DNA of 64,000 bases from assembly GCF_000613185.1 (NCBI RefSeq), contig NZ_CCBB010000003.1, positions 558,001-622,000 of the forward strand, written 5' to 3'. The notes under the pieces are model-generated. The model made no database searches. It was not told the origin of the DNA and saw nothing but the letters and a program-made list of their open reading frames with translations. This document shows, piece after piece, positions 4,169-51,342 of the stretch; the first letter of the stretch is position 1; the number at the start of each line of letters is the position of its first letter. The translations under genes were made by a program, and so were the position numbers. Origin of the DNA: Mycolicibacterium cosmeticum. Its GTDB lineage: Bacteria; Actinomycetota; Actinomycetes; Mycobacteriales; Mycobacteriaceae.

Positions 4169-5488
4169 TCAGGGCTCGACGGTGAGCACCGAGCGGCCCA
4201 ACCATCGGCACGCCATCAAGGCGATCTGTATCTGCACCACGAAGTCCGGGTCATCGAGGGTGGCACCGCACTTGTCCAGTGCTTGCGCCACCCGGTACTG
4301 GATGGTGTTGCGGTGCAGGAAGAGGGCCTCGGCCGTGGCGGCATAGCTGCGGTTGCGGGCCAAGAACTCCCGCAGCGTATCCCGAAGCCACCCGTTGCGT
4401 TCGTCGTCGGTGGCCAATTCGCCGAGCACGGCACCGACGAACCGGCGCAGCTCCGCGGGGTGGCCGGCCATCAGCGCCACCGGAGCGACCGCGGCGTAGG
4501 GCACCACTCGCCGAGTCGGGTCGCCGGCTGCGCCGGCCTGCGCGACGACGTGAGCGCGTTCGGCCTCCTGCAACGTCCGCCTGAACCCGTCGACTCCCCA
4601 CCCGGGGGTGCCGAACGCCAGACGCACCGCCATCCCGGCATCGAGCAGCGCCGCGGTCACGGCGTCACCGCAATCCACGCCGTGATCGGTGACGGGCCAC
4701 CACAGGCGGGCTTCGCGCTCGTCGGTCGGCACCATCAATGCCGGACCGAGCGCCTGCAACCGGTCTCCGATGACCGCGTGCGCGTCGTCGAGCAGCGCGC
4801 CGACGTCCCTGGCGGCGACGTGATCGTCGGCCCACATCACCGCCCCCACATGCCACCGGTCGAAGCGGTAGTTCAACGCATCCTCCGCGCGCCCGATGTC
4901 GACCGGTCCGCCTTCCAGAACCTGGGTTACCCAGTGCTGCCGCAGACCGCTGCGGCTGCTGACCCACCGGTCGCGTTCCCGTTCGTAGGCCTGACCGACC
5001 TGATCGCAGATGCGATCGATCCACAGTGCCGACTGGTGCACGAATACGGCTGCGGCCGAGAGCGATTCGGCCTGCGACGGGTGGGTCGCCAGGACGGCGA
5101 TGGCTTGGTCGACGAAGCGGTTGTGCCCGATGCGGTAGGCCCGGATCAATGCGGACAGCGGTACGTCGCGCTGCGCCAACGCCCGCGCATACACCAGCGC
5201 CGCACTGGGCGCTTCGACGTCCTCTTCCGCCCTGCCGTGTTCGAGGAAGTGGATCGCGGCGACCACGTTCTCGGTGATGCTCGCGGTCAGCAGGTCCACC
5301 ATCCGCGCATCGTGATCGAGCGAGCGGATCTCGGCTCGGGTGACCAACACCAACGCGTCGATGAAGGCATCGCGCTGCACGCTCATCTGCTGAGCCACCC
5401 ACGTCACCAAGGCATCAGGTTGCCCATCCACCATCAACACCCCCAAGGTCGCGGCCCCAGTATCGCCCTCGGCAACCCGAGTGACCAC
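4169..5488 (-). CDS. PucR family transcriptional regulator
   Basis: The C-terminal end (FLARNRSYAATAEALFLHR followed by NTIQYRVAQA) is the PucR/CdaR-type helix-turn-helix. The middle contains the degenerate GGDEF-like region typical of actinobacterial PucR proteins, and the N-terminal half is helical, resembling their RsbT-co-antagonist-like sensor part. These regulators usually respond to a metabolite and control a neighbouring catabolic gene. It is divergent from an alpha/beta hydrolase gene across about 250 bases, making that gene a candidate target. The start is uncertain: GTG at 5488 has GGGGGTGAG just upstream, TTG at 5491 is adjacent, and ATG at 5434 would give a 421-residue protein. 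Confidence 0.88.
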   Translation of the reverse strand: MVTRVAEGDTGAATLGVLMVDGQPDALVTWVAQQMSVQRDAFIDALVLVTRAEIRSLDHDARMVDLLTASITENVVAAIHFLEHGRAEEDVEAPSAALVYARALAQRDVPLSALIRAYRIGHNRFVDQAIAVLATHPSQAESLSAAAVFVHQSALWIDRICDQVGQAYERERDRWVSSRSGLRQHWVTQVLEGGPVDIGRAEDALNYRFDRWHVGAVMWADDHVAARDVGALLDDAHAVIGDRLQALGPALMVPTDEREARLWWPVTDHGVDCGDAVTAALLDAGMAVRLAFGTPGWGVDGFRRTLQEAERAHVVAQAGAAGDPTRRVVPYAAVAPVALMAGHPAELRRFVGAVLGELATDDERNGWLRDTLREFLARNRSYAATAEALFLHRNTIQYRVAQALDKCGATLDDPDFVVQIQIALMACRWLGRSVLTVEP

Positions 5489-5736
5489 CAACTCACCCCC
5501 GCGAGTTCATGCGCTGCGCCCGACCCACCGGCGACGCGCGCCATGGCAACGTCGGCCGCCTCGGTCACCACGTTCGCGCCGTTGTGCGGGCCGCACGACG
5601 AGACCCGCCGACAATGAGCCGCGCCGCACATGGTGTGCCCGCGTCCGGCGACTTAGGCTGAGCTTTTGCTGGTGACAGGCTTCCCGCACTGCGTGACGAC
5701 GAGGCAGGGCGCGCCGCACGCTACGAAGGAGACCGC

Positions 5737-6678
5737 ATGCCGACACCTGCCCGATCGTTTCGCCGATCCGACGAGCACTTCATCTCCGGTGGCGTTCGCT
5801 GCGCGGCGTGGGTGTACCGGCCCGTCACCACCACCGCTGTGGCACCGCCCGTCATCGTGATGGCCCACGGCCTGGGAAGCGTGCGTGTGCTGCGCCTACC
5901 TGCGTATGCCGAGCGTTTCGCCGCGGCGGGCTACGTGGTCGTCGTGTTCGACTACCGATCCTTCGGGGACAGCGACGGCGATCCGCGGCGGGTCGTGGAC
6001 GTTGCCGCGCAGCTCGCCGACTGGCGCGCCGCATTGGCGTGGGCGCGCACCCTCGACGACGTCGACCCGCGCCGGGTCATCGCCTGGGGCACGTCCTTCG
6101 CGGGCGGCCACGTCATCACCCTCGCCGGCACCGGCGAGGAGTTGGCCGCCATCATCGCCCAGGTGCCCCACGTCAGCGGTCCCGCGGCCGTCCGCGCCAC
6201 CGGACTGCACGCGCTGCGACTCGCCCCCGCTGCCGTGGACGACACGCTGCGCGCCGCGCTGCACAGGCCACCCCGCTACGTCGACCCCGTCGGTGCCCCC
6301 GGCACTGTCGCGGTGATGGCCACCCCCGATGCCGATGCCGCGGTGGACCGGCTCTTCCAAGAGTCCGGCATTCGCCGCGGGGAGTTGCCCGAGACGATCG
6401 CCGCGCGGATCCTGGCGCGCATCGGCCTGTACTCACCCATCCGCCACGCCTCGAAAGTGACGTGCCCCGCGCTGGTGCAGGTCGCCGCCGACGACGCCAT
6501 CGCCCCGGCCGGACCGGCCCGCAAGGCGGCTCACCGCATGCGCCGGGCCACCCTGCAGGACTACTCCGGCGGCCACTTCGACCCCTACGTCGACCCGCTG
6601 TTCGAATCGGTGGTCACCGCCCAGCTGGACTTCCTTGCCAGCACCGTCCCCGTCGCCGCCCCCACCACCGGCGCCTGA
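5737..6678 (+). CDS. Alpha/beta hydrolase
   Basis: A 313-residue alpha/beta hydrolase. The oxyanion region MAHGLGS is near residue 42. The nucleophile elbow GTSFAGG (Ser about residue 120) replaces the usual GxSxG with an equivalent GTSFAG. An acidic residue lies in AADDAIAP near 260 and the probable catalytic His is in GGHFDPY near 287, completing a Ser-Asp-His triad. The organisation resembles actinobacterial serine hydrolases and esterases often annotated simply as alpha/beta hydrolase; there is no signal peptide, so it should be cytoplasmic. GAAGGAG precedes the ATG. The divergent PucR-type regulator probably controls it. Substrate unknown. Confidence 0.88.
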   Translation: MPTPARSFRRSDEHFISGGVRCAAWVYRPVTTTAVAPPVIVMAHGLGSVRVLRLPAYAERFAAAGYVVVVFDYRSFGDSDGDPRRVVDVAAQLADWRAALAWARTLDDVDPRRVIAWGTSFAGGHVITLAGTGEELAAIIAQVPHVSGPAAVRATGLHALRLAPAAVDDTLRAALHRPPRYVDPVGAPGTVAVMATPDADAAVDRLFQESGIRRGELPETIAARILARIGLYSPIRHASKVTCPALVQVAADDAIAPAGPARKAAHRMRRATLQDYSGGHFDPYVDPLFESVVTAQLDFLASTVPVAAPTTGA

Positions 6679-38700: not shown

Positions 38701-39025
38701 CGGCCAGCGCGTCGTGCAGGCGCAATCGCCGCTCCGGCCGGTCGGCGGCGACGAGGTGGCGCTCCAGGTCGTTGCACGCCCGCGCCGGATCGTCGATGGC
38801 GACCAGCGCGCTGACGATCTGGGCGCGCACCCGTTCGCGTAGTTCCTGGCTGGCCGATCTGCTGAAGGTGATCAGCAGCATCTCGTCGAGCGTGGCCACT
38901 CCTTCGGCGACCATCCGGGTCACCAGACCGGCGAGGGCGAACGTCTTGCCGGTTCCCGCGCTGGCCTCCAACACCGTCGTCGACAATGGCGCGGGCAGCG
39001 GGCCGAGCAAATCGAAAGTCTTCAC
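35795..39025 (-). CDS. recB: Exodeoxyribonuclease V beta subunit (RecB helicase-nuclease)
   Basis: A 1076-residue protein. Walker A is EASAGTGKTF (Lys at residue 27), motif II VMVDEFQDTDPVQW, motif III GDPKQAIYAFRGGD, and later motifs TVWVSKGLQYPIVYLP and TYVALTRAQSQVVAWW. The C-terminal nuclease domain has the signature with an Asp in SIDVVLRVDG and DYKTNW (the metal-binding DYK), then a Gln/Tyr segment (YPLQALLYSVVLHRYL). GTG at 39025 is chosen: the frame continues far upstream but only within recC; the start overlaps the recC stop by 4 bases (GTGA). It is the nuclease and 3'-5' helicase subunit of RecBCD. Confidence 0.94.
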   Translation of the reverse strand: MKTFDLLGPLPAPLSTTVLEASAGTGKTFALAGLVTRMVAEGVATLDEMLLITFSRSASQELRERVRAQIVSALVAIDDPARACNDLERHLVAADRPERRLRLHDALAGFDAATIATTHQFCHVVLKSLGVAGDSDSAVTLVENLDELVTEIVDDVYLAHFGMQRDDPVLGYRAALKLAREVANNPATELRPVDPEPDSYAAVCLAFARDVLAELEIRKRRRGILGYDDLLTRLATALDSPGSAARVRMPQRWPIVMVDEFQDTDPVQWRVIERAFTGRSRLVLIGDPKQAIYAFRGGDIDTYLRAAQAAGDKQTLGTNWRSDAALVQRLQVVLGGAQLGGPGIVVHPVQAHHEGHRLAGAPHNDPFRLRVVTRGNSGTRTLPIDRLRAHIGKDLAADIGALLTSGATFDGDPVQARHIAVIVETHRDARACFDALAAAGIPAVYTGDTNVLGSEAAADWLCLLEAFDQPHRTGLVRAAAATAFFGETAETLAPGGDQLTDRIAATLRTWAGHARERGVAAVFEAAQLAGMGRRVLSRQGGERLMTDLSHMTQLLQDTAHGAGFGLPALRDWLRSQSSDSAGATERNRRLDSDAAAVQIMTVWVSKGLQYPIVYLPFAFNRYTPDPDPVLYHEDSVRCLYLGGAAPAVIRAGKAEAAANDSRLTYVALTRAQSQVVAWWAPSYYEPNGGLSRLLRGRSPGTAEVPEVCAPSKISDADALARLRAWEETGGPVLEESVIAPFTAPAAPVPATDLSVRLFDRAIDTSWRRTSYSGLLRAAQEAEPAGVSSESELVELDDEVADIALSAPASGADVPSPMADLPTGATFGSLVHAVLETADPFAPDLVAELHTQVAAHAARWPVAVAPAEVAAALVPMHDTPLGPLAPGATLRRIGLPDRLCELDFEFPLAGEHRTLADIGALLERHLPADDPLACYAERLSTGALSRQSLRGYLSGSIDVVLRVDGRFLVVDYKTNWLGTGDAPLTVADYGRDRMVEAMLHSDYPLQALLYSVVLHRYLSWRLPDYRPETHLGGVIYLFVRGMCGPTTPVRDGHPAGVFSWRPPAALVTALSASLEGA

Positions 39026-42000
39026 CGCGAACCGCTTTCCGCGCGCAACAGCGGCAACCACAGGCGCTGGGCGTACTCGTCGAGTCCGCTCAGGTCGGCG
39101 AGCCGGGCGCCGCGTCCCCACACCCGTTCGACGGCCTTGTCCTCGCATTCGTTCTTCCAGCGGTAGCCGGCGGCCTGCTCGGGATCGTCGCCGGCCTCGC
39201 GGGCCATCGCCCACGCATATGACGTCTTGACCGGCAGCGGCAGTGGGGTCCGGCGGCCCTCGTCGTACAGCGCGACCAGGTCGCGTAGCACCGGCAACGG
39301 GGCGTCCGGTGCCTGCAGCATCTGCACCCGCGGTGTGGTGCCCCGCCTGGGCCGGCCGACGCAGGTGGCCGACCAGGATCGATTCGGCTCCGCCGCGGCC
39401 AAGGCGAGCAACGGAATCCAGGAGGTGAGCAGATGTTTGCCGTCCAGTTTGGAGTAGGTCACCGCCGTCAACCGGTTCCCGAACACCGGGGTCACGGTGC
39501 CGGTCAACCGCCGGCCCGGCCCCAGTTCGACATCCACGTCGAAGACCGCGGCTTCGGTGGTGCGGTGCCGAAGCGCCTCGGCGGCCAGCTCGGCCGCCTG
39601 ATCCCGGATCTCGATGGCGCGCCGCCAGCCGAGCCGGCCCGGCGGTAGCGTGCCGCGTCGCCATTCGGCTTGTTGGGCGTCCTGCGGTGTCAAACCGGCC
39701 ATGATGTCCGCCAACATCCGGTCGCCCACCGTCCACTCCTCGAGCGCGTCGATGGCCACCGGCATCTCGTCGGACACCCCGTCGACGTCCCACGGCAACG
39801 TGTAGTCCAGCGCGCGGAAGAAACCCTTGATCGGGTCGTTGAAGAACCGGATCAGTTCGGGCAGTTCGACATCGGCGACCGGCGGCGCGGGCAGCGGGCC
39901 GGAGACGAACACCGGCCGCGGTTCGCGATGCCCGGACATCGCCTTCGCCGCGGTCAGCGCCGTCGGGTCGAAGGTGAAGGGCCGGCCGTTCTCGTCCGGC
40001 TCGACGTTGCGGATGTCGAAGGGCTGCAACGGGTGTCGGGTCAGCACCGATACCTCGCCGGAGCAGGTGAGGTCCAAGGTGTCCAGCAGTTCGGCGACCG
40101 GCACCGCGGGCGGGCGAATCTGGCCGGTGTATTCGTTGGCGCCGGTGTAGGTGATCACCAGCGTCTCGGTGGCGGCGCCGATCGCATCCAGCAGCAGCTG
40201 CCGATCCTCCGAGCGGATGTCGCGCTCGCCGGTCATCGGGTCGCGCGCCAGGATGTCGTCGCCGTCGACCGCGCCCAACCGGGGGAACGTCCCGTCGTCG
40301 AGCCCCACCAGGCACACCACCCGGTGCGGAACCGACCGCATCGGGACCATGGTGCACACCGTCAGCGTGCCGGTGCGGAAGTTGGAGCGGGTGGGCCGTC
40401 CCGCCAACCGCCGGTCCAGCAGCGCGCGAATATCGCTGAGCCGCAACGGCGTGGCGCCATCTGCGGTGTCGAGAATGTCGGTGAACTCCTGTTGCGCTTG
40501 AGCCCGTGGCCAGTCCTCGTCGTCGCGGGCCAGCGCATCGATGCCGTCGAGCAGCGCGTGTAACCAGTCGGCCAGGGGCCGGGTGCCGCCGAGTGCGACG
40601 ACGGTCCGGTGCAGTTGTTCGACGAATTCGGCGAACCGGCCGGCCAATTCGACGCGGTTGCTGCTGACGTCGTCCAGCGGCAAGGTGGTGTCCAGCCAGG
40701 TTCGTGAATCATCGGACAGCGCGACGCCCGCGAGCACCCGATCCAGTCCGAAACGCCAGGTGTTGTGCAGGAATTCGACACCGTAGGGGGCGCGGTGCTG
40801 CTGGTCGAAACCCCAGCGGATATTGGCCTCGCGGACCCATGCGGTCACCGCGTCCAGGTCGTCATCGGTGAACCCGAACCGCGCACGCACCGGTGCGGTC
40901 GCGGCCAGGTTGAGCACCTCACTGGCGGAGGCGCGCCCACCGGCGAGGCTCAGCAGTTGCGCGGCGACTGCGAGCAGCGGATTGGTCTGCACCAGCGCCC
41001 GGTCGGCCAGCCGGACCCGTAACCGGTGGGCGGGGTGGGCGCCGTGCACCACTTCGCCCAGCCCGAAACCCGCCGAGATCAGCGACGCGAAGGTCTCGAT
41101 ATCCGGGCACATCACCAGGATGTCGCGTGGTTCCAGGGTGGGGTCGTCGGCGAGCAGGCCCAGCAGGACCTCGCGGAGCACGTCGACCTGGCGGGCCGGG
41201 CCGTGGCAGGCGTGCACCTGCACGGACCGGTCGGTGAGCCGGAATGTCCGACCATCGGGGCGCAGCCGGTCGGCGGCGATATCGGACTGCAGCCAGCCCA
41301 GCAACGTGTCCGGATGCGTTGGGGCGGGCAGGTATTCGTCCGATGCCGGGATGGGGAGTGCACGCTGTAGCTCCCGCAGGTCCCGGCCGAGGGTGGCCAG
41401 CAGGGGATGTCCGACGCCGCGATGACTGGTGTCCTCGCGGCGGGGGATGCGGCCCTCGTGGTCGGTGAGCGAGCGCCACATGCGATCGCTGGGGTGGGGG
41501 AGCCACAGGTGCAGGTCGTGATGGGTGGACAGGGCGCCGAGCAGTTCGATCTCGGTGGCGGGCAGTCGGGTGTGCCCGAACAGCGACAGCCGTTGCGGCA
41601 GCTGATCCGATGGTCCTTCCCGTAGTCGCGCAAGGGTTTTCGTGTGCCGGACGTGTGGTGGGTCGGTGTCCATCCGGGCCAGCAGGGCCTGCCACAGCGG
41701 GGGCTGCCAGGCCAGGTCGGCATCCACGCCCGCCCAGTCGACGAGCAGTTCGGGCCGCTGGCGTGCGTAGGACGCGAACAGCCCGGCCAGCCTGCGCGCC
41801 ACCGCGTAGCGGCGGCCCTGCCGCAGTTCGCGCTCCTCACCGGTCTCGAAGTGGCCGAGGTGGGCGGCCAGGGTGGCGCACCACGGCTGGTCCAGGTTCT
41901 CGTCGATGGTGGCCAGCAGTGGCCACACCAGCGCGTCGGGCGACCATGGATCGCGCTGCGAGGTGCCGACGAGCTCGCCGATCAACGAGCGAGGACTGCG

Positions 42001-42186
42001 GAACCGCACACCGGCGCACACACCCAGACGGTCCGACAACCGTTGGCTGAGCCAGCGTTCCACGCCCTTGGCGGGCACCAGGACCAGTTCCTGGGCGAAC
42101 GGGTCGGGCAGTGGCCGGGACAGCAGCGCACCCAAGCCGTCGGCGAGCAGATCCGTGCGCTCGGCGCGGTGCAGGTGCAGGGCCAT
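39022..42186 (-). CDS. recC: Exodeoxyribonuclease V gamma subunit (RecC)
   Basis: A 1054-residue protein, the scaffold and single-strand-binding subunit of RecBCD. Start MALHLHRAERTDLLADGL and the family segments LVLVPAKGVERWLSQRLSDRLG near residue 38, SLFGHTRLPATEIELL near 210 and VVCLVGLDDGTFPR near 615 match RecC. Like other RecC proteins it retains helicase-like folds without functional ATPase motifs. It is the first gene of the operon; no strong ribosome-binding site precedes the ATG. A copy of a 36-base repeat lies about 46 bases upstream of the start, so the promoter region is marked by the inserted element described at 42301-42756. Confidence 0.93.
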   Translation of the reverse strand: MALHLHRAERTDLLADGLGALLSRPLPDPFAQELVLVPAKGVERWLSQRLSDRLGVCAGVRFRSPRSLIGELVGTSQRDPWSPDALVWPLLATIDENLDQPWCATLAAHLGHFETGEERELRQGRRYAVARRLAGLFASYARQRPELLVDWAGVDADLAWQPPLWQALLARMDTDPPHVRHTKTLARLREGPSDQLPQRLSLFGHTRLPATEIELLGALSTHHDLHLWLPHPSDRMWRSLTDHEGRIPRREDTSHRGVGHPLLATLGRDLRELQRALPIPASDEYLPAPTHPDTLLGWLQSDIAADRLRPDGRTFRLTDRSVQVHACHGPARQVDVLREVLLGLLADDPTLEPRDILVMCPDIETFASLISAGFGLGEVVHGAHPAHRLRVRLADRALVQTNPLLAVAAQLLSLAGGRASASEVLNLAATAPVRARFGFTDDDLDAVTAWVREANIRWGFDQQHRAPYGVEFLHNTWRFGLDRVLAGVALSDDSRTWLDTTLPLDDVSSNRVELAGRFAEFVEQLHRTVVALGGTRPLADWLHALLDGIDALARDDEDWPRAQAQQEFTDILDTADGATPLRLSDIRALLDRRLAGRPTRSNFRTGTLTVCTMVPMRSVPHRVVCLVGLDDGTFPRLGAVDGDDILARDPMTGERDIRSEDRQLLLDAIGAATETLVITYTGANEYTGQIRPPAVPVAELLDTLDLTCSGEVSVLTRHPLQPFDIRNVEPDENGRPFTFDPTALTAAKAMSGHREPRPVFVSGPLPAPPVADVELPELIRFFNDPIKGFFRALDYTLPWDVDGVSDEMPVAIDALEEWTVGDRMLADIMAGLTPQDAQQAEWRRGTLPPGRLGWRRAIEIRDQAAELAAEALRHRTTEAAVFDVDVELGPGRRLTGTVTPVFGNRLTAVTYSKLDGKHLLTSWIPLLALAAAEPNRSWSATCVGRPRRGTTPRVQMLQAPDAPLPVLRDLVALYDEGRRTPLPLPVKTSYAWAMAREAGDDPEQAAGYRWKNECEDKAVERVWGRGARLADLSGLDEYAQRLWLPLLRAESGSR

Positions 42187-42231
42187 CGCGAGTCACGATA
42201 GTCACTCCCGGGCGGGGACCGGAGCACGTAT

Positions 42232-42267
42232 CTGATTGCCCGCCTCCGAGCGACTTTTCAGCGACAG
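42232..42267 (+). repeat. Repeat copy A (36 bp, direct to copy B)
   Basis: The 36 bases CTGATTGCCCGCCTCCGAGC (first 20) to 42267 are identical to 42313-42348. Inside it AGCGAC occurs twice, 11 bases apart (one helical turn), separated by TTTTC. It lies about 46-81 bases upstream of the recC start. Confidence 0.85.
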
Positions 42268-42300: not shown

Positions 42301-42347
42301 CAGACCTATGTGCTGATTGCCCGCCTCCGAGCGACTTTTCAGCGACA
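42301..42347 (+). repeat. Left terminal inverted repeat (copy B)
   Basis: Begins CAGACCTATGTGC, continues as the shared repeat core TGATTGCCCGCC and ends GCGACA. Its complement is at 42710-42756 with one mismatch. CGCCTCCGA (42322-42330) also pairs with TCGGAGGCG (42359-42367), giving a possible leader hairpin just before the small gene that would involve its GGAGG. Confidence 0.85.
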
Positions 42348-42384
42348 GGGCGAACTTGTCGGAGGCGCGTATGAACATGGCGGC

Positions 42385-42699
42385 ATGTCCACGTATCTAC
42401 GGGTCAGAGGTGTCGAGTTGCGATACGTGCTGACCTGGCTGCTCGCCCATGAGGGGCCGGCGACGGTGGCCGAGCTGATCGACCGGCTGGTGCGCTACGG
42501 GTTCGACGTCGGGGGCCGGCCGTCGAAGACGGTGTCCGACGCGCTGCGCTGGGAGATGGGCCACGGCAGGGTGTGGCCCCGGGGCCGCGGCCGCTACCGT
42601 TTCGGGGAGATGCCGAGAGCCACCGAGTACCGGATCGAGAAGCGCGTGCGCGGTCTGCTCGTCCGCGCGGACGCGCTCGCCCGTGAGGCGCCGCCCTGA
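42385..42699 (+). CDS. 104-residue winged-helix-like protein inside inverted-repeat element
   Basis: Start ATG at 42385 is chosen because the upstream in-frame extension (GTG at 42310) is encoded by the repeat itself. The product is basic and looks like a small winged-helix DNA-binding protein: helix LRYVLTWLLAHEG, then ATVAELIDRLVRYGF, then GRPSKTVSDALRWEMGHGR as a recognition-helix-like segment and a wing (VWPRGRGRYRFGEM), ending in a charged helix (YRIEKRVRGLLVRADAL). I do not recognise a named family. A competing ATG at 42371 with GGAGG five bases upstream would read a 20-codon overlapping frame. It may bind the AGCGAC repeats at the element ends; inference only. Confidence 0.6.
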   Translation: MSTYLRVRGVELRYVLTWLLAHEGPATVAELIDRLVRYGFDVGGRPSKTVSDALRWEMGHGRVWPRGRGRYRFGEMPRATEYRIEKRVRGLLVRADALAREAPP

Positions 42700-42709
42700 C
42701 GCCCGGGCT

Positions 42710-42756
42710 TGTCGCTGAAAAGTCGCTCGGAGGCGGGCAATCGGCACATAGGTCTG
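42710..42756 (-). repeat. Right terminal inverted repeat (copy C)
   Basis: Inverse complement of copy B with a single A/G difference, ending GCACATAGGTCTG. It begins 11 bases after the small gene stop and lies 32 bases from the echA3 stop, so it may also act as a hairpin terminator region for converging transcripts. Confidence 0.85.
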
Positions 42757-42788: not shown

Positions 42789-43508
42789 CTACTTCAACGT
42801 GAGCGCGAACTCCTCGGCCAGGCCGTCGATACCGGCGCGGATGGCCTCGATGGCCGATGCGCGGGCCTTGGCCTTGCTGGCGACGTGCGCCTTGAGGTTC
42901 AGGGTCGCGGCGTACTCGGCCGCCACCGCCTGCGCCCGGCCCAACACGTCGTCGCGGTCGACGATCTCGTCGAGCCAGCCGGCCGCGATCGCGGCGTCGC
43001 CCGAGAAGGTGGCCGCCACGGATACGGCGCGGGAGAACGCGGCACGGGTCAGGCGCATCCGCATGATCTCGACGGCCGAGATCGGCAGCGTCATCCCGAT
43101 CGCCACCTCGTTGGCCTGGCAGCGGGATTTCTCCGACCCCACCCGGTGGTCCCCGCTGAGCAACAGGAACGAGCCCATGGCGATGGCGGGCCCGGTGGCC
43201 GCCATCACGATCGGTGCCGGAAAGCTCAAGGCCCGCACCGACAGTTCGAATCCGGCGGTCAGCATCGCCAGTCCGGCGGCGGGGTCGCCCGAGGCGAACA
43301 CGCTCAATTCGAAACCGCCGCTGAACACCCGGGAATTGCCGGCCAGCACCACGGCTTTCACGGTGCCCGCCGAGATGTCGGCCTCCGCCTGATCCAGCGC
43401 GCCGTTGACCGTCGCCAGCATGGTGGGCGACAGCGCGTTGACCTTGCCGTCGTCCAACGTGATCGTCGCGACGGATTCGTTGACCGAGTAACTCACCGGG
43501 GTCGTCAT
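42789..43508 (-). CDS. echA3: Enoyl-CoA hydratase/isomerase (EchA3-like)
   Basis: A 239-residue crotonase-fold protein, close to the length of M. tuberculosis EchA3 (Rv0632c) and in the same position beside recC. The oxyanion-hole segment VFSGGFELS (near residue 62) and PAPIVMAATGPAIAMGSFLL (near 100) are typical. The segment ANEVAIGMTLP, with a glutamate where many hydratases have a catalytic acid, lies near 137. It may act as hydratase or isomerase in fatty acid metabolism. ATG at 43508 lacks a strong ribosome-binding site. The upstream gene ends 10 bases away and could be co-transcribed. Confidence 0.88.
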   Translation of the reverse strand: MTTPVSYSVNESVATITLDDGKVNALSPTMLATVNGALDQAEADISAGTVKAVVLAGNSRVFSGGFELSVFASGDPAAGLAMLTAGFELSVRALSFPAPIVMAATGPAIAMGSFLLLSGDHRVGSEKSRCQANEVAIGMTLPISAVEIMRMRLTRAAFSRAVSVAATFSGDAAIAAGWLDEIVDRDDVLGRAQAVAAEYAATLNLKAHVASKAKARASAIEAIRAGIDGLAEEFALTLK

Positions 43509-43518
43509 GGAGCGGATG

Positions 43519-44361
43519 TTACGGAGCGTGGTTGCGAATTCCGATGGCGGGGCTCGAGTGATGTCTGCCGCCGGGCCGCTTGTCATCGATCCACGGGAAG
43601 TCGAGCTCGGTGGTCTGGTCGACCTGGCGGGTCCGCCAACGGTCCTGGGTTTCGCGCACCGCGCGGTTCATCCGGTCGATCTCGGCCCGGAACACCTCGG
43701 GCCGGGTTTCCTTGGATGCGTAGTGGAAGTAGGTGAGCAGGCTGCGCAGCAGCTCCAGCTTCTGCTTCTCCCGTTTGGCCAGATCGTGGTTGAGCATCAG
43801 GTCGAGGCGTTGGGCCGGCGGCAGGCTCTCCCAGTCGAGCGCCACCGCGGACGTGTATTCCTGCGGCTTGCCCTTGTCACCCGAGGGACGGTCGCGGTAG
43901 GTCAGGGTGCCGTCGAATCGCGACCGGATCTCGCCGCCGAGTTCTGCCCGGCTGATCGCCGAATCCCAAACGGTTCGCCACTCCTGGCCGGGCGCCAGCT
44001 GTTTGAGTTCGCTGGGGAGGCGGAGTTCGCCGATCTCCGGTGGCCCGTCGTCGTAGGCGTCCTCGTAGCGACCCACGGTCAGCGGGGCGGGGAAGTCGAA
44101 TTCGACATCGTGTGCCGCGGACTTGCCGAAGTTACGCACCACCAGCTCGATGACGTGCCAGTCGGTGGCGCTGGGCTCCATGTACATCACCACGTGGGGG
44201 CGCAATTCGTCACGCTTGAGCTGGCGGTTTCGTTTGATCACCCGTGCCACGAAGATGAGGGCGAGGACCGCGAGAAGGAGCCCCGTCCACGCCGCGATGG
44301 TCAACCAGGCTGCAGAGCCCAGGCCGGCCAGATCGGTCCATCGATCGCGAAACCACTCCAC
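43519..44361 (-). CDS. Single-pass membrane protein, unknown function
   Basis: A 280-residue protein with one membrane helix (about residues 13-38, WLTIAAWTGLLLAVLALIFVA), a very basic stop-transfer segment (RVIKRNRQLKRDELRPH) and a cytoplasmic domain of about 230 residues. The start of that domain reads as a beta-sandwich (VVMYMEPSATDWHVIELVVRN then GKSAAHDVEFDFP) and the end as charged helices (KREKQKLELLRSLLTYFHYASKE). I do not recognise a named family. GTG at 44361 has GAGGG upstream. It lies 10 bases before echA3 on the same strand and may be its partner in transcription. Confidence 0.7.
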   Translation of the reverse strand: MEWFRDRWTDLAGLGSAAWLTIAAWTGLLLAVLALIFVARVIKRNRQLKRDELRPHVVMYMEPSATDWHVIELVVRNFGKSAAHDVEFDFPAPLTVGRYEDAYDDGPPEIGELRLPSELKQLAPGQEWRTVWDSAISRAELGGEIRSRFDGTLTYRDRPSGDKGKPQEYTSAVALDWESLPPAQRLDLMLNHDLAKREKQKLELLRSLLTYFHYASKETRPEVFRAEIDRMNRAVRETQDRWRTRQVDQTTELDFPWIDDKRPGGRHHSSPAIGIRNHAP

Positions 44362-49344: not shown

Positions 49345-49417
49345 GCCCCCTTAGCTCAGTCGGCAGAGCGTTTCCATGGTAAGGAAAAGGTCAACGGTTC
49401 GATTCCGTTAGGGGGCT
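49345..49417 (+). tRNA. thrT: tRNA-Thr (GGT)
   Basis: Cloverleaf readable: acceptor stem GCCCCCT/AGGGGGC with discriminator T, D-arm, anticodon stem TTTCC/GGAAA with loop ATGGTAA (anticodon GGT), T-arm with GGTTCGATTCC. No encoded CCA. Syntenic with M. tuberculosis thrT. Confidence 0.93.
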
Positions 49418-49456
49418 CGGTGGACGCCAGGCGGATCGCCGCCTTCGTCTAATCGG

Positions 49457-49530
49457 GGCGGTGTAGCTCAGCTGGTTAGAGCGCACGACTCATAATCGTG
49501 AGGTCGGGAGATCGAGCCTCCCCACCGCTA
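49457..49530 (+). tRNA. metT: tRNA-Met (CAT), elongator type
   Basis: Acceptor stem GGCGGTG/CACCGCT (G1-U72 wobble), discriminator A, anticodon stem CACGA/TCGTG with loop CTCATAA (anticodon CAT), T-arm GGGAGATCGAGCCTCCC. 39 bases after thrT, 25 bases before rpmG, as in M. tuberculosis. Confidence 0.92.
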
Positions 49531-49555
49531 CAGGCAACAACGAGAGGCAACTGAC

Positions 49556-49723
49556 GTGGCGTCGAGTACCGACGTACGGCCGAAGATCACTTTGGCCTGC
49601 GAGGTGTGCAAGCACCGCAACTACATCACCAAGAAGAACCGGCGCAACGACCCGGACCGGCTGGAGATCAAGAAGTTCTGCCCGAACTGCGGTCACCACC
49701 AGCCGCACAAAGAGTCCCGCTGA
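49556..49723 (+). CDS. rpmG: Ribosomal protein bL33 (Zn-binding, C+ type)
   Basis: A 55-residue ribosomal protein of the large subunit. Sequence [18 protein letters not shown] and [10 protein letters not shown] contain two CxxC pairs that bind zinc, the C+ form. Start GTG with GAGAGG upstream. Position between metT and hadA corresponds to rpmG2 of M. tuberculosis. Too short for many gene callers. Probably co-transcribed with had genes 10 bases downstream. Confidence 0.92.
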
Positions 49724-49732
49724 TCCTTCGCC

Positions 49733-50209
49733 GTGGCTCTGTCATCGAATATCGTCGGGATGCATTATCGCTATCCCGATGCGTATGAGGTGGGACGCGA
49801 GAAGGTGCGCGAGTACGCCCTGGCGGTCAAGAACGACGCGGCGTACTTCCAGGATGAAGCTGTCGCCGCCGAGCTGGGTCACCAGACCCTGCCGGCGCCG
49901 CTGACCTTCATCAGCATTTTCGGCTACACGGCGCAGTACGCGTTTTTCCGGCACGCCAACATCGGGATCCACGACGCGCAGATCGTCCAGGTGGACCAGG
50001 CCTTCACCTTCGTCCGGCCCATCCGCGCGGGTGACAGGCTGTACTGCGACGTCTACGTGGATTCGGTGCGGCAGGCACACGGCACCGACATCATCGTCAC
50101 CAAGAACATCGTCACCAACGACAAGGGTGAGGTTGTGCAGGAGGCCTATACGACCCTGGCGGGCCGTGCGGGCGACGGGGAAGAGGGTTTTTCTGATGGC
50201 TCTGCGTGA
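49733..50209 (+). CDS. hadA: (3R)-hydroxyacyl-ACP dehydratase subunit HadA
   Basis: A 158-residue hot-dog fold subunit of the FAS-II dehydratase that pairs with HadB in mycolic acid elongation. Start MHYRYPDAYEVGREKVREYA region and LPAPLTFISIFGY are typical of HadA. Like other HadA proteins it lacks the catalytic Asp-His pair, which HadB provides, and shapes the acyl channel. GTG start at 49733. Its 3' end overlaps hadB by 14 bases. In M. tuberculosis this complex is the target of isoxyl and thiacetazone after EthA activation; resistance maps to hadA and hadC. Confidence 0.93.
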   Translation: MALSSNIVGMHYRYPDAYEVGREKVREYALAVKNDAAYFQDEAVAAELGHQTLPAPLTFISIFGYTAQYAFFRHANIGIHDAQIVQVDQAFTFVRPIRAGDRLYCDVYVDSVRQAHGTDIIVTKNIVTNDKGEVVQEAYTTLAGRAGDGEEGFSDGSA

Positions 50210-50624
50210 GTTCAGTTCGGTCAGCGTCGGCGACACCCTGCCGGAGAAGGTCATCCCGCTGACCCGGCAGGACCTGGTCAACTACGCCGGCGTCTCCGGG
50301 GACCTCAACCCCATCCACTGGGACGACGACATCGCCAAGCAGGTCGGCCTGGACACCGCCATCGCGCACGGCATGCTGACCATGGGCCTCGGCGGCGGCT
50401 ACGTCACCGACTGGGTGGGCGACCCGGCGGCCGTCACCGAATACAACGTCCGCTTCACCGCGGTGGTGCCCGTGCCGAACGACGGCGTCGGAGCGGAGAT
50501 CGTCTTCAACGGCCGGGTGAAGTCGGTGGAGCCGGAGAACAAGTCGGTCACCATCGCGCTGTCGGCCACCACCGGCGGCAAGAAGATCTTCGGCCGGGCC
50601 ATCGCCGTGGCGAAGTTGGCCTGA
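50196..50624 (+). CDS. hadB: (3R)-hydroxyacyl-ACP dehydratase catalytic subunit HadB
   Basis: A 142-residue hot-dog protein and the catalytic subunit of HadAB and HadBC. The hydratase-2 motif is in YAGVSGDLNPIHWDDD (Asp and His separated as DxNxxH), near residue 36-41. IAHGMLTMGLGG is the family's second signature. ATG at 50196 overlaps the end of hadA. It removes water from (3R)-hydroxyacyl-AcpM during mycolate synthesis; essential in M. tuberculosis. Confidence 0.94.
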   Translation: MALREFSSVSVGDTLPEKVIPLTRQDLVNYAGVSGDLNPIHWDDDIAKQVGLDTAIAHGMLTMGLGGGYVTDWVGDPAAVTEYNVRFTAVVPVPNDGVGAEIVFNGRVKSVEPENKSVTIALSATTGGKKIFGRAIAVAKLA

Positions 50625-50627
50625 CCC

Positions 50628-51149
50628 ATGGCATTGCGCCCCGATCTGCTCGGGATGGTCTACAAGTACCCCGAGGTCTTCGTCGTCGGCCGTGAACAGG
50701 TCAAGCTGTTCGCCAAGTCGGTCAAATCCGAGCATCCCGCCTCGCTGTACGAGGATGCCGCCGCCGAACTCGGCCACGACACCTTGGTTGCCGGGCCGAC
50801 CTTCGTGTCGATCCTGGCGAATCTGGTGCAGCAGGATTTCTTCCGCAATATCGACGTCGGCATGGAGACCATGCAGATCATCCAGGTGGATCAGCGGTTC
50901 GTGTACCACCGGCCGATCAAGGTGGGCGATCGTCTGCACGCGGAACTGGAGATCATGTCGGTCGACGAGCGCTTCGGCGCCGATATCGTCGTCACCCGCA
51001 ACATCCTTCGGGACGACGATGCCGACGACGCCTTCGTGGTGATGGAGGCGTTCACCACGCTGATGGGTCACGAGGGTGACAACTCGGTGTCGGTGCAGTA
51101 CGACCGGGAATCCGGACAGGTGCGGCGTACGGCGGTCGCCCGGGATTAG
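50628..51149 (+). CDS. hadC: (3R)-hydroxyacyl-ACP dehydratase subunit HadC
   Basis: A 173-residue hot-dog subunit paralogous to HadA, partner of HadB for longer acyl chains. It begins MALRPDLLGMVYKYPEVFVV and has LVAGPTFVSILAN and FVYHRPIKVGDRLHAELEI, mirroring HadA segments. Catalytic residues are absent as expected. ATG three bases after the hadB stop, so the three subunits are co-translated. tRNA-Trp follows after 120 bases. Confidence 0.93.
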   Translation: MALRPDLLGMVYKYPEVFVVGREQVKLFAKSVKSEHPASLYEDAAAELGHDTLVAGPTFVSILANLVQQDFFRNIDVGMETMQIIQVDQRFVYHRPIKVGDRLHAELEIMSVDERFGADIVVTRNILRDDDADDAFVVMEAFTTLMGHEGDNSVSVQYDRESGQVRRTAVARD

Positions 51150-51269
51150 TAACTAACACTTGGGCCGATGTACACTCGGTCCTCGGGGTTTTCCCACATC
51201 AGCGCGCTGTCCGTCGGTTCGGAAATCGGCCGGTCGGGGAGCGCGCGAATTGTGTGAGGGCCGCAACGA

Positions 51270-51342
<73 letters not shown>

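Follow-up and report, generated by a model that had tools for sequence, protein, structure and literature searches.

A winged-helix gene between inverted arms

The interval between recC and a crotonase/enoyl-CoA hydratase gene (echA) of Mycolicibacterium cosmeticum was analysed within a stretch of 64,000 nucleotides (hereafter the window) from a genome of 6.46 Mb. It spans 602 bp and holds two direct repeat copies, a 104-codon gene and one inverted copy of the repeat (Table 1). An initial annotation, made from the sequence alone, had described 47-nt inverted arms around the gene and a 36-nt direct copy further left, and both descriptions are borne out. The arms are 98% complementary with one mismatch, and the direct copies at 42232–42267 and 42313–42348 are exact, with a start-to-start spacing of 81. 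The 104-codon frame covers 42385–42696 and is closed by a stop codon at 42697–42699. It lies in a run of 165 stop-free codons. In each of the five remaining frames of the unit the longest stop-free stretch, as judged by length alone, is at most 64–129 codons.

Table 1 Coordinates of the repeat-bracketed unit and its neighbours in the window
Feature	Position	Strand	Basis or remark
recC	39022–42186	minus	NCBIfam
Two GTCAC boxes (42192, 42201; 9 bp apart)	42192–42205	plus	45 and 36 bp before first motif copy
Outer left repeat copy	42232–42267	plus	motif core 42237–42254
Inner left arm of inverted repeat	42301–42347	plus	motif core 42318–42335
Winged-helix gene, 104 aa, kept across mycobacteria	42385–42699	plus	homologue and predicted-structure evidence
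Right arm of inverted repeat	42710–42756	minus	motif core 42722–42739, minus
Crotonase/enoyl-CoA hydratase gene (echA)	42789–43586	minus	NCBIfam

Structure prediction gives the 104-residue protein, with high confidence (pLDDT 94), the fold of a winged helix with a C-terminal helix. Of 297 genomes sampled from the genus, 173 have a homologue, mostly as a single copy per genome and mostly annotated as “hypothetical” in the sources; a 96% identical homologue is listed for Mycolicibacterium sp. 120266. The gene is under purifying selection, with pN/pS values of 0.25 and 0.08. Since it is both conserved and selected, the outcome that the initial annotation had set against its own proposal, a repeat fixed at this one place or a frame of no conservation, did not occur.

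In relatives, the flanks of the gene carry the generic, inward-facing motif TGCCCRSCTNNNAGCGAC. The motif was counted around the gene at 70 loci, with 29 drawn from the best-scoring matches, 20 from genomes without an exact copy of the pattern used for the genus-wide search (see below) and 20 from further down the list (71 were taken, one being too short). Allowing one mismatch, it stands on both sides at 45 loci, upstream only at 13, downstream only at two and on neither side at 10; without mismatch the corresponding numbers are 31, 11, 3 and 25. None of 3550 shuffled 330-bp windows contained it. Grouping by flanking sequence gave nine groups among 36 loci (two genomes are represented twice in this set). 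For the full 70 loci there were up to 25 groups, a number possibly inflated by single-member groups with short or diverged flanks. In 19 of the 25 groups at least one locus is bracketed on both sides. The claim of a repeat-ended unit was upheld, and the gene and its arms occur together at other places in other species. The largest groups, 18 loci in the smaller set and 16 in the larger, each share one location, and from the 18 loci at one place it follows that the gene is often inherited vertically.

The three NNN positions are equal between both arms of a gene in 26, 21 and 23 of 31 loci, and the two arms match slightly better than expected (1.26 vs. 1.57 differences, p 0.01). As NNN is often unlike between the two arms, a pure hairpin function is not favoured, and a hairpin-only reading of the arms is weakened. 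The initial annotation had also pointed to a doubled AGCGAC, 11 bp apart, in each copy. This holds for the window genome, but the conserved unit is TGCCCRSCTNNNAGCGAC and not AGCGAC-N5-AGCGAC. The doubled form is a local feature, present in the window genome and in loci fetched with a 19-mer that itself contains it. Two consensus sequences lack it, one built from 96 motif copies beside the gene at other loci and one from 67 copies of six other genomes.

Among the named records compared, the nearest by locus is that of M. canariasense (recC protein 95% identical), which shares the outer left copy of the window (L048). Comparison of the left copies shows that the repeat is held and the spacers drift. 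A second downstream copy is present in G310 and M. canariasense and lacking in the window. The proposal that the unit was inserted between recC and echA stands in part. Both genes adjoin without it in two genomes: in G224 no motif lies between them (none at up to four mismatches), and in G278 they are about 65 bp apart with flanks 81% and 84% alike. However, G278 may be a deletion scar, because the left outer sequence and TGCCCGCC are still present.

Dispersed copies and their distribution

The motif is not restricted to the gene module. Among 36 dispersed elements that lie away from the gene in six genomes, 25 take the form of inverted pairs or of tandem arrays of such pairs, and the remaining 11 consist of a single copy. 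Orientation was assessed for 150 copies from 14 genomes, these being the first places listed per genome and so not all copies: neighbours at most 200 bp apart face inward in 34 cases, point in the same direction in 15 and face outward in none, and the inward pairs among these listed copies are 39–184 bp long. Moreover, gene-flanking copies resemble the dispersed copies of their own genome more closely than those of others (1.62 vs. 2.81 differences at five variable positions; label permutation p 0.008, seven genomes).

The genome of the window contains the 23-nt core at nine places with up to three mismatches, compared to none for the reversed control. Three are in the window, five lie upstream of DUF222 genes and one (L011) stands alone between convergent genes. 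The core was absent, at up to two mismatches, from the 60 other genomes first searched, so that the exact version is local. An exact 19-nt core recurs in 17 stretches of the named genome collection, 16 of them mycobacterial. The pattern TGCCCRSCTNNNAGCGACA matches 189 of the 297 genomes of the genus and misses variants such as the AGCGACT form of the window genome. It has 1,945 copies in all, a total summed from per-group mean copy counts, vs. five for the backward pattern, and between 0 and 62 copies per genome. Chance or low complexity as the source of the repeats was rejected on the reversed and backward controls together with the shuffled windows. A phage collection gave no match, and a plasmid collection one weak match, from Azospirillum, over 10% of the query.

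The dispersed elements are mostly extragenic, one of the 36 falling inside a predicted gene (L105) and one being unclassified (L110), as judged with a crude gene finder. By the same crude prediction, 34 sites could be classified; 28 of these follow a gene, in convergent or tandem arrangement, and six are between divergent genes. A preference for 3′ ends was considered and dropped: its direction is as in repetitive extragenic palindromic (REP) sequences, and it is not clearly above the 75% expected for random gene order.

Presence and absence of dispersed pairs was compared at three sites in 13 related genomes. The first site has the pair in six genomes, a single arm in one and neither in six; of the latter, G174, G097, G198 and G250 lack a repeat-bearing segment of about 154 bp precisely, and the neighbours nearly abut. 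The second site gave the same counts, with about 223 bp precisely missing in G198 and G016 and two stop codons abutting. Across six genomes, identity at this second site is 97% and 93% in the arms and 76–81% in interior and flanks. At the third site five genomes have the pair, one a decayed arm and seven neither. Some genomes without the pair carry other sequence at the site. In G158 (C4:1996254–1998351) a stretch of genes that borders one repeat site is found twice in close proximity, with equal scores. The patterns differ among the sites, and both gain and loss are therefore possible. M. setense was also compared with Mycobacterium sp. URHD0025 as a candidate empty site and set aside, the left flanks failing to align. 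It seems that the gene and its arms changed place together, as one unit, and that the gene-free pairs spread within genomes.

Relation to known systems and alternative readings

The closest parallel is the REPIN–RAYT system. According to PMC3116915, it consists of REP doublets (REPINs) with a REP-associated Y1 tyrosine transposase (RAYT), on which REPINs are thought to depend. Shared with it are a mostly single-copy, often vertically inherited gene that lies between repeats, inverted doublets scattered elsewhere without the gene, repeat variants particular to a genome and a mostly extragenic location. The mycobacterial unit differs in that the gene encodes a small winged-helix protein devoid of a Y1/HUH domain (PF01797). 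A REP is a palindrome tagged with GTAG or CGTC. A single mycobacterial arm, TGCCCRSCTNNNAGCGAC, lacks palindromic symmetry and its consensus shows no evident tag of this kind, but at some loci two arms join into one continuous palindrome. As the defining transposase is absent, the unit is not placed within REPIN–RAYT. A RAYT as mobiliser was likewise rejected, as 12 of 14 repeat-bearing genomes gave no match to the Y1 transposase model PF01797.

The CGTC-tagged REPs are said, in PMC3733652, to be without a dedicated transposase. In this respect they resemble the mycobacterial family, also short inverted repeats with no known dedicated transposase, and differ in that the mycobacterial repeats bracket a dedicated non-transposase gene and show no evident end tag. 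That paper mentions REP-like repeats in M. tuberculosis, although a word search of its text for “Mycobact” gave no match. According to PMC6006769, a single subclass of these transposases is represented in Actinobacteridae. None of four short motif strings occurs in a rep-PCR study of the repeats of M. intracellulare (PMC10117815). The initial annotation knew of no description of such an element, and the open-licence literature, as far as its text was accessible, yielded none of this repeat/winged-helix family.

On balance, the unit is probably the “master” form, with the gene, of a REPIN-like mycobacterial repeat family in which a winged-helix gene takes the place of the RAYT. Inward-facing arms bracket the gene and occur with it at several chromosomal sites. 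The gene-free inverted pairs would be the non-autonomous form that is scattered through the chromosome and would stand to the master form as REPINs stand to RAYTs. The protein would most likely bind an arm as double-stranded DNA via two half-sites split by three free bases and pair the arms; once bound, it would control its own gene, the autoregulation being suggested by a motif that brackets that gene, and act as an end-recognition factor. Cutting and joining would be done by a host or other enzyme. Arm binding, arm pairing and such a mobilising enzyme are inferred. This reading draws on the bracketing of the gene and the number of flank groups, on the inward pairing of dispersed copies, on the likeness of copies within a genome, on the surplus of copies in gene-positive genomes, on the precise absences at two sites, on the predicted winged helix and on the lack of a Y1 transposase match in 12 of 14 repeat-bearing genomes. 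A stronger version, in which the winged-helix protein alone drives the spread of the arms by bringing host enzymes of replication or repair to them, is conceivable but doubtful. If true, this transposase-free replicator would be a REPIN-like parasite or symbiont without a nuclease of its own, its arms composed of the bipartite motif and outer boxes spaced by 9 bp (see below).

Several observations weigh against a REPIN-like family. Neither Pfam nor NCBIfam places the protein of the window in a family above cut-off, and no PHROG was matched, so that no catalytic domain is in sight, and PF01797 matches do exist in two of the 14 genomes, G115 and G295. At least four repeat copies are found in 106 of 173 gene-positive vs. 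18 of 124 gene-negative genomes (Fisher p 1e-16, a statistic that ignores phylogeny), yet this leaves 18 genomes rich in repeats and devoid of the gene. Hidden divergent homologues were discarded as an explanation, since a profile search found none in 17 of the 18 and only two weak fragments in G244 (E 0.005 and 0.09). Conversely, 35 gene-positive genomes have no exact pattern copy, although several of the 20 inspected hold variants. The absent segments of about 154 and 223 bp exceed the arm pairs in size, and inspection by eye revealed no target duplication at the two sites with empty relatives. At these sites either insertion or deletion is possible, and mobility is suggested here by presence and absence between species.

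A serious rival, if an unlikely one taken by itself, is that the protein is an ordinary winged-helix regulator with the arms as its operators. The dispersed inverted pairs would then be paired operators kept by selection, for looping, 3′-end control or chromosome structuring, and the gene would have spread by horizontal transfer together with its operators. The arms held at the second dispersed site while interior and flanks drift agree with this, as does the missing catalytic domain, and unlike NNN between the arms of a gene is easier to explain by protein contact than by a paired hairpin. The five copies of the window genome that precede DUF222 genes, each in the sense direction, point the same way, with the start codons provisional and one gene interrupted. 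A regulon is harder to reconcile with a copy number that ranges so widely between genomes, with partly genome-specific variants, with segments present or absent between relatives and, weakly given the random expectation, with the 28 of 34 sites behind a gene. Both readings can hold at once.

Less probable still is a family of miniature inverted-repeat transposable elements (MITEs), in which the arms would be the ends of an unrelated DDE transposon acting in trans and the winged-helix gene a passenger. The unit does have terminal inverted repeats, a MITE feature; the ~300-bp elements of M. setense and other species, several of them with three or four motif matches (see below), would suit this origin, and the outer GYCAC boxes spaced by 9 bp resemble multi-site transposon ends. 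Against it stand the lack of a long frame besides the gene inside the unit of the window and of a visible target duplication, and no other arm-bracketed gene turned up, though no search aimed at one was made. Finally, the unit could be an old, fixed intergenic feature or a product of chance, immobile and with an unimportant frame. The large flank groups at one location and the possible deletion scar in G278 would fit, but several locations, purifying selection, the excess of 1,945 over five motif copies, inward pairing and the same-genome resemblance of copies contradict it and make it highly improbable.

If the REPIN-like reading is correct, a genus-wide repeat family with a dedicated non-transposase gene would offer a tractable case for how repeats spread and persist. 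The winged-helix protein and its motif form a directly testable protein–site pair and give context to a widespread “hypothetical” mycobacterial family.

Outer boxes, DUF222 neighbours and related elements

Outside the arms, GYCAC boxes accompany 52 of 67 copies from six genomes and 52 of 95 copies at gene loci, compared to 19% of random points. They lie mainly 27, 35–36 and 44–45 bp before the motif and thus keep a 9-bp phase, in the manner of an iteron-like array. Pairs spaced by 9 bp occur at 21 of 67 and 21 of 95 copies (random 0.4%). The boxes are rarer in loci fetched by the 19-nt core (9 of 25) and in the window's own genome (2 of 9). There, a 9-bp-spaced pair is found at one of the nine copies, the first copy of the window, whose GTCAC boxes share the phase of the GYCAC boxes in other species.

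The five own-genome copies near DUF222 genes (L010, L012, L013, L014 and L015) lie ~75–165 bp upstream in the same orientation, the start codons being provisional, and the genes behind them are of at least two types. DUF222/HNH genes go by the name of “13E12 repeat family”. Some of them have repeat copies upstream, yet the window unit has no DUF222 gene. Further DUF222 matches near repeats were found at L040, L042 and L044 (M. canariasense) and L047 (sp. J2). A DUF222/13E12 element as mobiliser was rejected, since only these 4 of 86 other loci (L039–L124) match, as searched with the five own DUF222 proteins at 1e-8, a threshold that distant members could escape. At L014 (~5155–6562) the DUF222 gene is interrupted near its start; the inserted frame resembles transposases of the IS3 and IS481 models, with scores under the curated cut-offs. 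At L013, L014 and L015 the start codon of the DUF222 gene lies within or across a GAAC-N4-GTTC palindrome, which we take to resemble a mycobacterial SOS (LexA) box. The region upstream of the DUF222 gene at L010 and L012 contains TGTGGATAA, presumably akin to a DnaA box.

Elements of ~300 bp, 68–77% alike, were recognised at L041, L045, L046, L049, L053 and L055, in M. setense (two loci), Mycobacterium sp. URHD0025, [M.] fortunisiensis, sp. NS-7484 and sp. GA-1841. Three of them have three or four motif matches, arranged as outer arms and a central palindrome. L046 and L055 represent one locus, URHD0025 sharing one of the M. setense loci, and the rest have different flanks. A second inverted repeat, CGAGTGTGCGGTTT ... 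AAACCGCACACTCG (variants, identified by eye), occurs at several of the intergenic sites compared above for presence and absence (L231, L233, L236, L239 and L262), in some cases nested between the arms, and looks like another small repeat family. An Rfam search of the window and five loci returned nothing except three tRNAs; in the window, three tRNA genes lie on the plus strand at 49345–51342.
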